Made by a program: the position numbers and the translations under genes
Shown: positions 5,239 to 53,026 of the stretch, piece by piece
Position numbering within the stretch: position 1 is the first letter of the stretch
Layout: each line of letters starts with the position of its first letter
Assembly (NCBI GenBank): GCA_030424545.1
Contig: JAUHWL010000010.1
Location: forward strand, 1-64,000
Length of the DNA stretch: 64,000 nucleotides
Origin: Bacteroidia bacterium
Lineage (GTDB): Bacteria; Bacteroidota; Bacteroidia; Flavobacteriales; Schleiferiaceae
Reading direction: 5' to 3'
Notes under the pieces: model-generated
Seen by the model: only the letters and a program-made list of their open reading frames with translations
What the model was told of the DNA's origin: nothing
Database searches by the model: none

Positions 5239-5495
5239 AATTGGTTACCAAAACAAAATAAACAATTAGAATGCCAGAAATAAAATTTTTTGGTGGCATT
5301 GCCTGTGGTAGTGGCAGACGCTTTGGTTGTGTACAGAAACACATTTCTTTTTTATACCGAGATTAGGTTGGATTTCATCGCGCGTTAGCCGCATAAAAAT
5401 TAAGGTTGGTGAACTAAATAGAACACTTTCTTTTTCACGAACATATCGCAGTGCAATCTGTTTATTAAATCAATGGCTGTCTGCAATGTAGATGT

Positions 5496-5503
5496 TATCT
5501 TTG
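5496..5503 (+). promoter_or_regulatory. candidate -7 promoter box for the suf operon
   Basis: The octamer TATCTTTG matches the Bacteroidota sigma-A -7 consensus TAnnTTTG and lies 31 bases before the sufA start codon. No clean TTG -33 box is seen at the usual distance, so the assignment is tentative. The 296-base spacer 5239-5534 between the divergent CHAT gene and sufA holds nothing else I can recognise. Confidence 0.4.
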
Positions 5504-5534
5504 CCGGTTGATATTTAGAACTAATCTAAATTAC

Positions 5535-5864
5535 ATGATAAAAGTTTCAGAAACAGCAAAAAACAAAGTTATTTCTCTGTTGCAAGAGGAAGGTAAATCT
5601 TTGGAAAATAGCTACGTACGCGTTAGCGTGGCCAGTGGCGGTTGCTCGGGTTTGTCTTATAAAATGGACATTGTAGAGCAAGCGCAAGAAGGCGATAAAG
5701 AAGTGGTTGATCAAGGCGTTCGGATTTTGGTTGACAAAAAAAGCTTGTTGTACTTAATTGGCACCACGCTAGAATATTCTGGTGGGTTAAACGGAAAAGG
5801 CTTTGCGTTTAACAACCCAAATGCTAGTCGTACTTGCGGCTGCGGAGAGAGCTTCGCGGTCTAA
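5535..5864 (+). CDS. sufA: A-type iron-sulfur carrier protein (SufA/IscA/ErpA family)
   Basis: A-type carriers accept Fe-S clusters from the SufBCD scaffold and pass them to apoproteins in the cytoplasm. The 109-residue product has the three conserved cluster-binding cysteines: Cys37 in Gly-Gly-Cys-Ser-Gly and Cys101/Cys103 in the C-terminal Cys-Gly-Cys-Gly-Glu-Ser-Phe. The frame is open nine codons further upstream, but the Met at 5535 places the family's N-terminal helix correctly. It is the first gene of the suf operon. Four bases after its stop codon, a heptad repeat begins that belongs to the inserted four-helix-bundle cassette. Whether it is best called sufA or erpA cannot be decided from sequence alone. 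Confidence 0.9.
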   Translation: MIKVSETAKNKVISLLQEEGKSLENSYVRVSVASGGCSGLSYKMDIVEQAQEGDKEVVDQGVRILVDKKSLLYLIGTTLEYSGGLNGKGFAFNNPNASRTCGCGESFAV

Positions 5865-5867
5865 CAG

Positions 5868-5898
5868 GTTGAAGGTTAAATGTTGAACGTTTAAGGTT
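5868..5898 (+). repeat. left heptad repeat of the four-helix-bundle cassette
   Basis: The 31 bases consist of four copies of the degenerate heptamer GTTNAAN followed by GTT. They begin four bases after the sufA stop and end directly against the ATG of the S23-type gene. The repeat at 6332-6362 is the same array in inverted orientation; aligned as reverse complements the two arrays agree at about 23 of 31 positions, with every invariant base of the heptamer kept. The two arms could pair in RNA across the whole gene. Confidence 0.85.
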
Positions 5899-6330
5899 AT
5901 GGCAGCAATCAAACGATTTGAAGATATAGAATCATGGCAGCTGGCACGCGTTTTTTGCCAGTGGCTTTTTGGGTTGATGGAGTCCTCGCCACTAATAAAT
6001 GATTTCGCTTTAAAAAATCAAATCGACCGTTCTTCAGGTTCTATTATGGACAATATTGCCGAAGGATTTGAACGCAACGGTAACCGAGAATTTATTCAAT
6101 ATTTAAGCACAGCAAAGGCAAGTTGTGGCGAAGTTCGCTCGCAATTGTACCGGATTTTTGACCGAAAATATGTTGGTCAAGATGAGTTTGAGAAGAAAAG
6201 AGAGGAACTAGAAATTATTTCGAAAAAGATAAGTGGCCTGATGTATTATTTAAAACAGGCCGAACAAAAGGGTTGGAAGTTTATGGAAGATTCTGCAGAA
6301 TATGGCACTACAGAAAACACCATTGGTTAA
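5899..6330 (+). CDS. four-helix-bundle protein, S23 / 23S rRNA intervening-sequence family
   Basis: This 143-residue protein is predicted to be all helical. It matches the four-helix-bundle family first found in 23S rRNA intervening sequences (S23/IVP), related to the Avd accessory protein of diversity-generating retroelements. Recognisable parts are the Phe-Glu-Asp-Ile-Glu-Ser-Trp-Gln opening, the Gln-Ile-Asp-Arg-Ser-Ser-Gly-Ser-Ile helix near residue 42, and the Asn-Ile-Ala-Glu-Gly-Phe-Glu-Arg motif near 53-60. Its biochemical role is not known. It sits between sufA and sufB, where the pathway has no need for it, and is bracketed tightly by inverted GTTNAAN heptad arrays. This suggests an inserted unit rather than a suf component. 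Confidence 0.85.
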   Translation: MAAIKRFEDIESWQLARVFCQWLFGLMESSPLINDFALKNQIDRSSGSIMDNIAEGFERNGNREFIQYLSTAKASCGEVRSQLYRIFDRKYVGQDEFEKKREELEIISKKISGLMYYLKQAEQKGWKFMEDSAEYGTTENTIG

Positions 6331-6331
6331 C

Positions 6332-6362
6332 AACTTTGAACATTCAACTTTAAACATTGAAC
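6332..6362 (+). repeat. right heptad repeat of the four-helix-bundle cassette
   Basis: Four copies of AACNTTN plus AAC, the reverse complement of the GTTNAAN array at 5868-5898, start one base after the stop of the S23-type gene. They end nine bases before the sufB start codon. Confidence 0.85.
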
Positions 6363-6371
6363 AACTAGCGC

Positions 6372-7805
6372 ATGAGCGATATACTTGATAAAGTAACCCA
6401 GAGCGAATACAAATACGGATTCACAACAGATATAGAATCTGATCAGGCCCCTGTGGGATTAAATGAAGACATTATTCGTTTAATTTCTCACAAGAAAGAA
6501 GAGCCCGAATGGATGCTTGATTGGCGCCTAAAAGCGTTTGAAATTTGGAAACAAATGGATGAACCCAATTGGGCAAACGTAACGTACGAAAAGCCAAGTT
6601 TTCAAGACATTATCTACTATTCGGCTCCGAAAAAGAAAAAGGAATTAGCCAGCTTAGATGAGGTTGATCCGGAATTGCTAAAAACATTTGCCAAGCTGGG
6701 CATTAACATAGAAGAGCAAAAACGCCTAACAGGTGTGGCCATGGATGTTGTGGTAGATTCTGTTTCGGTGGCCACCACTTTTAAAGCCAAATTAAAAGAG
6801 CTGGGCATTATTTTTTGCAGCATGAGCGAAGCCATAAAAGAATATCCTGATATGGTAAAAAAATACATCGGGACAGTGGTGCCAAGAACAGATAATTTTT
6901 ATGCTGCGCTAAACTCGGCCGTATTTACCGATGGAAGTTTTTGCTACATCCCCAAAGGGGTAAAATGCCCCGTAGAATTGTCTACCTATTTTAGAATTAA
7001 CGAAGCCGGAACTGGCCAGTTTGAACGCACCCTTTTGGTGGCAGATAAAGGCAGTTACGTAAGTTATTTAGAAGGTTGCACCGCGCCACAGCGCGATGAA
7101 AACCAGCTTCACGCAGCCGTAGTAGAGCTAATTGCGCTAGATGATGCCGAAATAAAATACAGTACCGTACAAAATTGGTACCCCGGAAATGCCGAAGGAA
7201 AAGGTGGTGTTTTCAACTTTGTAACCAAGCGCGGTGTGTGCGAGCGCAACGCCAAAATTAGCTGGACACAAGTAGAAACCGGAAGTGCCGTAACCTGGAA
7301 ATACCCCAGCTGTATCTTAAAAGGAGACAACAGCGTGGGCGAATTTTACTCGGTTGCCGTAACCAACAATTACCAGCAAGCCGATACCGGAACCAAGATG
7401 ATTCATTTGGGTAAAAACACCAAAAGCACCATCATCTCAAAAGGAATATCGGCAGGAAAAAGCCACAACAGCTACCGCGGTTTGGTAAAAATGGGGCCAC
7501 GTGCCGATAAAGCCAGAAACTTTAGCCAATGCGACAGTATGTTGATGGGCGATCGTTGCGGAGCACACACGTTTCCGTACATCGAAATACAAAACAAAAG
7601 CGCCAAGTTAGAGCACGAGGCCACCACAAGTAAAATTGGTGAGGACCAACTTTTTTACTGTAATCAACGAGGTATAGGTACCGAAGAAGCCATCGCACTT
7701 ATTGTAAACGGTTTCTGTAAAGATGTGTTAAACCAACTGCCCATGGAGTTTGCTGTAGAAGCGCAAAAGCTGCTAGAAGTAAGCTTAGAAGGAAGCGTAG
7801 GGTAA
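6372..7805 (+). CDS. sufB: Fe-S cluster scaffold subunit SufB
   Basis: SufB forms the SufBC2D complex, on which sulfur from SufS/SufE and iron are built into a cluster. The 477-residue length and full-length similarity to bacterial and plastid SufB are clear, from the N-terminal Tyr-Lys-Tyr-Gly-Phe-Thr-Thr segment through the Tyr-Leu-Glu-Gly-Cys-Thr-Ala-Pro region to the beta-helix core and the C-terminal Tyr-Cys-Asn-Gln-Arg-Gly segment. An 82-base spacer precedes sufC. The native link to sufA is interrupted by the S23-type cassette, but the sufB frame is intact. Confidence 0.96.
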
Positions 7806-11186: not shown

Positions 11187-11232
11187 CACCTCATCCCCTC
11201 GGTCCCCCTCTCCTTTTGGGAGAGGGGGAGGT
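11187..11232 (+). repeat. GC-rich palindromic element, left outer copy of the DUF559 cassette
   Basis: It starts one base after the sufS stop. It contains a perfect 10-base-pair hairpin, CCCCCTCTCC at 11204-11213 pairing with 11219-11228, over a 5-base loop. Its outer part, CCTCATCCCC, is the inverted form of the right copy at 11703-11745. The GC content contrasts sharply with the AT-rich surroundings. It could act as a weak terminator or mRNA end stabiliser behind sufS. Confidence 0.85.
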
Positions 11233-11269
11233 ACAAACAAAAATGAAAAAAATATAATTTCCGAACCCA

Positions 11270-11308
11270 ACTCCCCTCACCTTTAAGGAGAGGGGTTGGG
11301 GGTGAGGT
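11270..11308 (+). repeat. GC-rich palindromic element, left inner copy of the DUF559 cassette
   Basis: This element is a direct repeat of the one at 11703-11745: both run from CTCCCC through a short palindrome to GGGGTTGGGGG and TGAGGT. It ends 10 bases before the DUF559 start codon. With the outer copy at 11187-11232 in opposite orientation, the gene is bracketed by both inverted and direct copies. Confidence 0.8.
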
Positions 11309-11318
11309 CAAGAACAAA

Positions 11319-11693
11319 ATGGAACCCAGAGATTTCGAAATGTTTCATAATGCATCGCCAAGCGCTTTTGAAAAAGCGCGATTCTTGCGAACGCACTTAA
11401 CAGAAACTGAAGATTTGCTTTGGCAAGCGTTGCGAAACAGAAAATGTAACGGACTAAAATTCCGAAGACAACATCCATTCGAAGAGTATATTTTAGACTT
11501 TTTTTGTTTGGAAAAAAAGCTGGTTGTAGAGATAGATGGTGAATATCATTTGCTAAAAGACCAACGTGAATATGATGAAAATAGGACGGCATTTTTAGAA
11601 GAAAGTGGATTAAAAGTAATACGTTTTACCAACGAAGAAGTAAAATCTGAATTGAGTAAAATTTTAGAAGAAATAAAAAACATAACAAGTTAA
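11319..11693 (+). CDS. DUF559 endonuclease-like protein
   Basis: This 124-residue protein belongs to DUF559, whose fold is related to very-short-patch-repair (Vsr) and other PD-(D/E)XK nucleases. The putative metal site is visible as Asp60, then Glu71-Ile-Asp73 in the strand Leu-Val-Val-Glu-Ile-Asp-Gly-Glu-Tyr-His; an Arg-Arg-Gln-His-Pro segment precedes it. The substrate is unknown. The gene separates sufS from sufE and is flanked on both sides by GC-rich palindromic repeats of one family. The likely reading is a small nuclease gene travelling with its repeats. Its product has no place in iron-sulfur assembly. Confidence 0.85.
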   Translation: MEPRDFEMFHNASPSAFEKARFLRTHLTETEDLLWQALRNRKCNGLKFRRQHPFEEYILDFFCLEKKLVVEIDGEYHLLKDQREYDENRTAFLEESGLKVIRFTNEEVKSELSKILEEIKNITS

Positions 11694-11702
11694 ATCAACT
11701 CC

Positions 11703-11745
11703 ATCTCCCCCTCTCCTTACAGGAGAGGGGGTTGGGGGATGAGGT
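11703..11745 (+). repeat. GC-rich palindromic element, right copy of the DUF559 cassette
   Basis: It contains CCCCCTCTCC and its complement around a 4-5 base loop, then GTTGGGGGATGAGG. It ends four bases before the sufE start codon, so the repeat supplies the sequence where the sufE ribosome binding site should be. Confidence 0.85.
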
Positions 11746-11749
11746 AATT

Positions 11750-52657: not shown

Positions 52658-53026
52658 ATGCTGATTTACAAAAATGAAAGCTACGATATTATTGGTTGCT
52701 GCATGGAGGTGCATAAAGAATTGGGTCATGGCTTTTTAGAAGCAGTGTACCAAGAATCTTTGGCTTTAGAATTTGCAGAACAACGCATTCCTTTTGAGCG
52801 TGAAAAACCAATAGAGATTGAGTATCGTGGGCAGGTATTACAGAAAAATTATATCGCAGATTTTGTGTGCTACGATAAGATTTTGGTTGAGCTCAAGGCA
52901 CTTTCGGCATTAGAGGGAATTCACACCGCACAAGTCATTAATTATTTAAAAGCAACGGGGATAAAGTTAGGTTTGTTGGTTAATTTCGGAACAGAATCTC
53001 TTGAGTACAAAAGAATTGTTTTGTGA
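52658..53026 (+). CDS. GxxExxY family PD-(D/E)XK nuclease-like protein
   Basis: The 122-residue protein has the name-giving Gly25-Phe-Leu-Glu28-Ala-Val-Tyr31 motif and a nuclease-like core: Asp68 in Tyr-Ile-Ala-Asp-Phe and Glu78-Leu-Lys80, the D...ExK pattern of the PD-(D/E)XK superfamily. Its substrate and biological role are not known. It sits between pseB and pseC, two steps of one pathway, and has a tail of short related repeats at 53044-53196. An inserted selfish or accessory unit is the likely reading. Confidence 0.87.
   Translation: MLIYKNESYDIIGCCMEVHKELGHGFLEAVYQESLALEFAEQRIPFEREKPIEIEYRGQVLQKNYIADFVCYDKILVELKALSALEGIHTAQVINYLKATGIKLGLLVNFGTESLEYKRIVL

Follow-up and report, generated by a model that had tools for sequence, protein, structure and literature searches.

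The S23 proteins are widespread and structurally solved, yet their function has remained unexplained since they were discovered in rRNA intervening sequences (IVSs). In Leptospira and Coxiella, 23S rRNA IVSs carry an S23 ORF, and their stem is cut by RNase III (PMC4990558). Heptameric repeats between genes, too, are widespread and lack an explanation. They include (GGGANTN)n of Xanthomonas and GGGGA(C/T)T of Nostoc, with 70 inverted heptamer pairs in Xanthomonas campestris (PMC4692102), and TAACTGA repeats in Beggiatoaceae, cyanobacteria and Bacteroidetes (PMC4679880). Neither of these two heptamer papers mentions S23, and no paper joining S23 to heptameric repeats was found in the open-access literature searched. 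X. campestris also has an S23 protein whose structure has been solved (2gsc). Each of the three, S23 proteins, IVSs and heptameric repeats, is thus known separately; what is new here is S23 wrapped in heptad arms in mRNA operons.

Two further systems invite comparison. REP/BIME sequences with RAYT genes combine a gene standing between inverted repeats with dispersed, gene-less intergenic inverted pairs, as does the S23 unit described below. RAYT is an HUH transposase that recognises defined REP sequences, whereas the S23 arms are not sequence-conserved and have no transposase between them; for S23 itself we know of no catalytic site. Avd of the diversity-generating retroelements, a partner of reverse transcriptases, is a pentameric four-helix-bundle relative of S23, itself a family of pentameric rings. 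Unlike in Avd systems, no reverse transcriptase or template/variable repeat was noticed in the ORF list beside the S23 gene of the window (the whole stretch of 64,000 nucleotides that was analysed). The S23 unit of the window occupies 5868-6365, between the essential genes sufA and sufB, in a protein-coding operon rather than an rRNA helix:

5538-5864, + strand: sufA, Fe-S cluster assembly accessory protein, the upstream host gene (PF01521 1e-18, TIGR00049 1e-33; start set at MIKVSETAKNK)
5868-5898, + strand: left arm, four GTTNAAN units plus GTT (direct reading; lag-7 match 0.76)
5899-6330, + strand: S23, the 23S rRNA intervening-sequence protein, a four helix bundle of 143 aa (PF05635 6.2e-29, TIGR02436 3.6e-28)
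6332-6365, - strand: right arm, four AACNTTN units plus AAC (and a further AAC), the inverted counterpart of the left arm (direct reading)
6372-7805, + strand: sufB, the downstream host gene, with its ATG at 6372 (NF008773 1.6e-272, TIGR01980 8.8e-195)

The sequence-only reading had described an S23 gene between sufA and sufB, framed by a run of four GTTNAAN units on one side and the inverted run on the other, and direct reading confirms both the coordinates and the pattern. The left arm (GTTGAAG, GTTAAAT, GTTGAAC, GTTTAAG and GTT) starts 4 nt past the sufA stop, read directly as TAA at 5862-5864, and abuts the S23 ATG at 5899. The right arm consists of AACTTTG, AACATTC, AACTTTA, AACATTG and AAC at 6332-6362, with the extra AAC at 6363-6365. 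The S23 protein matches PF05635 with 100.8 bits (curated cut-off 33.8) over model positions 1-106 of 106, and TIGR02436 with 98 bits (cut-off 24); it also distantly matches the solved protein 2gsc (XCC0516) at 1.9e-8. S23 is the sole ORF between the arms, where the ORF list and profile searches gave no transposase or other enzyme gene. There is no Rfam match within 5400-6600, and no target-site duplication was identified at the unit.

We propose, with a probability of roughly 50%, that the unit at 5868-6365 is a small, mobile, operon-dwelling cassette, a relative in mRNA of the S23-bearing 23S rRNA intervening sequences. With those IVSs (PMC4990558) it shares the protein family PF05635, an ORF of similar size in the loop between complementary ends, a patchy distribution and decaying copies. 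It differs from them in sitting in protein-coding operons and in having variable-heptad arrays as arms, and its excision we only infer. The arms resemble published heptameric repeats in their 7-nt tandem unit and intergenic position, and those of Xanthomonas (PMC4692102) also in their fixed and free positions, inverted pairs and G-rich strand. Unlike the published repeats, the present arrays bracket S23 genes, and their unit is locus-specific.

That the unit is an insertion is indicated by the state of the junction in 29 relatives with a SufB locus, 17 from the same family and the rest from the same order, none of them a congener. The sufA-sufB junction is empty in 26 of these, with a gap of 5-117 nt, and in two sufA is not linked to sufB. 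The remaining relative, from another family (L039), has a 508-nt insert consisting of an independent, interrupted S23 gene with ATTNAAN / NTTNAAT arms, so that the same junction has been hit elsewhere. The S23 unit is therefore not common to all relatives at this site, and the earlier proposal of a self-contained unit of arms and S23, inserted in a protein-coding operon, is upheld. In a tree of 140 S23 proteins, occupancy of sufA-sufB requires at least four separate origins, and the window S23 clusters with own-family S23 genes located at sufB-sufC. Within a single genus (that of relative G023; 30 genomes, Chryseobacterium-like from the near-identical junction of C. taeanense, L251), five genomes have S23 at sufA-sufB. 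Their S23 genes belong to two unrelated lineages, each with its own arms: three alleles form one lineage with ATTNAAN arms, and two represent a distant S23 lineage with other arms.

S23 is kept by purifying selection, with codon-position divergence of 0.20/0.14/0.46, and 27 of its 80 nearest relatives sit at suf operon junctions. Both observations would suit S23 being an ordinary operon gene for Fe-S assembly, with the repeats as incidental regulatory or spacer sequence. We find this scarcely credible, as S23 is missing from sufA-sufB in nearly all relatives, its homologues adjoin many unrelated genes (sdhB, fabD-like, thiolase-like, nrdB-nrdA, cas10-cmr3), interrupted copies occur, and the arms are inverted and locus-specific. 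As to orientation, 103 of 111 scorable S23 loci (93%) lie in sense between two co-oriented genes, and four are antisense to both neighbours. On cyanobacterial plasmids, S23 is found between nrdB/nrdA, cas10/cmr3 and cas6/cas4 (L294, L297, L301), which are operons or gene clusters.

The window's own genome contains five S23 genes, all with inverted short-period arms by eye and with five different units: TTAGANN, GRAGACN, GTTATAR, a weak GGTGATA-like unit (L010) and GTTNAAN. The flanks of four of the five score best at lag 7; those of L010, whose S23 gene has an in-frame TAG, score at lag 6/8 and show no arm match. GTTNAAN as such was rejected as an S23 signature, the other four S23 genes of the genome having other units and GTTNAAN arrays being present in 8 of 60 family genomes. 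Since the unit changes between loci, the proposal would be falsely refuted by tallying GTTNAAN around other S23 genes.

The arms were compared by period and orientation, using the 80-nt flanks of 65 non-redundant S23 loci from own-family genomes, with 169 intergenic regions from 464 kb of the own genome as controls. Autocorrelation of the S23 flanks peaks at 7, 14 and 21, and lag-7 arrays are present in 38% of left and 49% of right flanks versus 4% of controls. This contrast led us to reject general intergenic decoration as a full account of the heptads, although bare arrays do exist. GC skew is +0.31 in left and -0.25 in right flanks (controls -0.04/-0.09), the G-rich strand pointing inward in both arms. 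Matching each left arm to the reverse-complemented right arm of its locus gives a mean score of 13.95, as against 7.92 for swapped arms and 9.14 for the highest of 10,000 permuted means, while matching in direct orientation has little effect (8.45 own, 7.52 swapped). The two arms of a locus are thus inverted counterparts, as had been suggested for this one. Among 82 loci with a clear arm match, stem mismatches spaced by 7, 14 and 21 nt exceed those at neighbouring spacings. The expectation that inverted heptads accompany S23 genes generally is borne out as to 7-periodic inverted arms, but the unit varies by locus and is not GTTNAAN. Lag 7 is not the best period in about a third of S23 flanks. 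Period 8 is seen in L083, L084, L099, L102, L108 and L119, period 9 in L111 and period 10 in L120, with the same period in both arms of each such locus.

Beyond the family, inspection by eye shows this layout in the majority of the 80 nearest relatives, which come from named Bacteroidota and one Balneolota. Heptad arms such as GGGAGTA/TACTCCC also accompany plasmid S23 genes of cyanobacteria (Nostoc, Calothrix), the alphaproteobacterium Azospirillum and Riemerella, the cyanobacterial and Azospirillum arms being of GGGAGTA, GGGTGTA, GGAAAAG or GAGGACG type. Eleven plasmid loci comprise six with strong lag-7 arrays on both sides (not clearly inverted in L301), two with left-only arrays and three with none, two of the latter scoring best at period 8. 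In a close clade, heptad type is correlated with S23 lineage (r 0.28, permutation maximum 0.17); after correction for composition, r is 0.05 in the diverse own-family set (permutation maximum 0.09). Inheritance of heptad type with the S23 lineage, expected of a sequence-specific binding site, was not upheld as a general rule, since the overall correlation falls from an apparent r of 0.51 to 0.40 after composition correction and is nil in the diverse set. The missing tie between heptad type and S23 lineage outside close relatives speaks against S23 working like a sequence-specific transposase, and for shape recognition or fast turnover of the arms.

Pairing between the two arms of the window unit follows the heptad pattern. 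Two-unit GTTNAAN matches number 7 in the window against 0.81 expected, a count reached in 0 of 100 shuffles, and six of the seven are the two arms. In register, the arms have 24 of 31 positions identical, with every invariant base paired and seven of the eight N positions mismatched. The isolated arm duplex is predicted at -21.6 kcal/mol, compared with -9.8 +/- 2.7 for shuffled arms, so the isolated arms are complementary ends able to form a closing stem. Permuting unit order costs arm pairing just z -0.38 +/- 0.12; the N positions pair little above chance, and exact pairing at these positions, being weakly selected at most, was set aside as a candidate. In the minimum-energy single-strand fold of the whole element (z -1.06) the arms are unpaired, and a whole-element fold with closed arms, differing from that fold, was rejected. 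A long stem around the gene in RNA, as first envisaged, is thus matched by the pairing of the isolated arms and not by the minimum-energy fold of the whole unit, so that in these models its formation around the full S23 ORF in mRNA is only plausible. An RNA stem of complementary heptads with free positions is found in P6b of the cyanobacterial tRNA-Leu intron, where the heptads are TDNGATT or NNTGAGT and the unit type switches while the fold stays (PMC4476775). Unlike the S23 unit, P6b lies in a group I intron, has no protein gene and uses two unit types only.

Heptad hairpins also occur without S23. In the Chryseobacterium-like genus, 24 of the 30 genomes have a sufA-sufB junction of 84-104 nt that lacks S23 and is nearly always a heptad hairpin, and one more has a junction of 65 nt. 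The mean fold z of the 24 bare junctions is -3.7, with 20 below -2, and the folds consist of short helices parted by small internal loops. An alignment of 14 bare hairpins has 94% of cells paired, and 6 of 17 pairs have changed on both sides, a number reached in 0 of 500 shuffles and standing at 0-3 in slid controls. These changes on both sides of pairs indicate that the heptad stem is maintained as a structure in this genus. In the own genome, GTTNAAN without S23 occurs at about 20 other places, nearly all intergenic: 16 clearly share one polarity, with GTTNAAN following a stop and NTTNAAC preceding a start, 4 are ambiguous in polarity, and 3 are inside reading frames or at the end of a contig. 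Bare inverted pairs standing between genes number at least two (L062, L057). Profile search of the loci of these bare arrays gave no degenerate S23. GTTNAAN arrays are common only in four own-family genomes (G000, G006, G013, G039). One array of this type is inside a long reading frame resembling dxs (L053; G000:C12:394620).

Bare arrays and hairpins, one of them kept by one genus at the very sufA-sufB site, raise the question of which came first. Slippage-prone arrays might grow between genes as features of the host site, and S23 might home into their loops, much as IVSs replaced rRNA tetraloops; that heptameric repeats are described as widespread among bacteria in papers that do not mention S23 (PMC4692102, PMC4679880) would fit such an order of events. 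We regard it as improbable, because at the same site S23 alleles have ATTNAAN arms while the bare hairpins of sister species are built of TTAGANN, and because arrays are rare in the own genome, where the four arms of two S23 units make up most of the strong ones in 464 kb.

A second possibility is a purely DNA-level mobile element, with the heptad arrays serving as ends like those of a transposon, S23 assisting a host recombinase or polymerase, and no RNA pairing involved. Different S23 lineages bring their own arms to the same site, the sufA-sufB site has been occupied repeatedly, solo arrays and bare pairs are dispersed through the own genome with fixed polarity relative to genes, and S23 is found on plasmids, all of which such an element would explain. 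The 93% sense orientation is harder to accommodate, unless it reflects selection against antisense or disruptive insertions. The unit also lacks a catalytic protein, and its arms, unlike transposon ends, are not tied to S23 lineage outside close relatives. The compensatory changes and the periodicity of the mismatches speak for a single strand that folds, although single-stranded DNA could fold too. We therefore consider the DNA-level element unlikely, though deserving of serious attention.

In the cassette that we favour, one S23 gene would lie in the loop of a stem whose arms are both inverted heptad arrays. The arms would pair in the polycistronic transcript into a long imperfect stem, making the S23 frame a separate domain between sufA and sufB; this stem would probably be cut, with RNase III as the candidate enzyme by analogy with rRNA IVSs. 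A domain set apart and probably cut in this way could be tolerated by the host operon. Periodic mismatches may prevent the stem from becoming one long, perfect duplex. S23 may act on the stem by shape rather than sequence, helping the cassette to move between operon junctions, and the bare hairpins would be S23-less derivatives of it. Pairing in mRNA, cutting and recognition by shape are steps that we infer.

A wider proposal, which we put forward tentatively and which may well prove too broad, is that S23 cassettes form a cross-phylum class of mobile intervening elements in mRNA, defined not by sequence but by structure: a stem made up of short helices, with a mismatch every 7 nt. S23 would then account for many heptameric inverted repeats that lack an explanation in Bacteroidota, cyanobacteria and Xanthomonas, with bare hairpins as gene-less derivatives. 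The recurrence of the layout across several phyla, with a different heptad at each place, suggests that a type of small mobile element in messenger RNAs has been overlooked. Because S23 is systematically wrapped in locus-specific, self-complementary heptads, two old puzzles are tied together and both become testable. The finding suggests repeated colonisation of core operons (suf, sdh and others) by small elements, whose folding out of the mRNA may make them tolerable. The rule of self-complementary, 7-periodic arms finds such elements without sequence similarity.

Some repeat-flanked sequences of other kinds were also encountered. In G006 (L302-L317), near-identical GTTNAAN hairpins are embedded in a dispersed repeat whose edges are GCCTAAC...GTTAGGC; this repeat resembles integron attC sites and possibly marks a large cassette array. 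These inverted pairs were rejected as S23-less cassettes, and since they belong to a larger, apparently unrelated attC-like repeat they were left out of the counts. The sufB-sufC junction of the Chryseobacterium-like genus (L262-L290) is variable too, ranging from 72 to over 700 nt and containing an acetyltransferase-like ORF, remnants of GxxExxY or other repeats. In the own family, GxxExxY (PF13366) genes (L153-L175; also the L039 sufB-sufC junction) often have inverted, locus-matched arms of CACAGAG/CTCTGTG or CGCAAAG/CTTTGCG type, scoring 12.8 for own against 8.5 for swapped arms; the copy in the window, at 52673-53017 (L170), scores only 8. As these flanks are inverted but have no 7-nt period, GxxExxY was rejected as a further cargo of heptad arms. 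Finally, the suf operon of the window has a second small-ORF insertion with another repeat type: a DUF559 gene (11319-11693) between sufS and sufE, within a bracketed region at 11190-11746 and framed by G/C-rich palindromic repeat copies, CCCCTCTCC...GGAGAGGGG.
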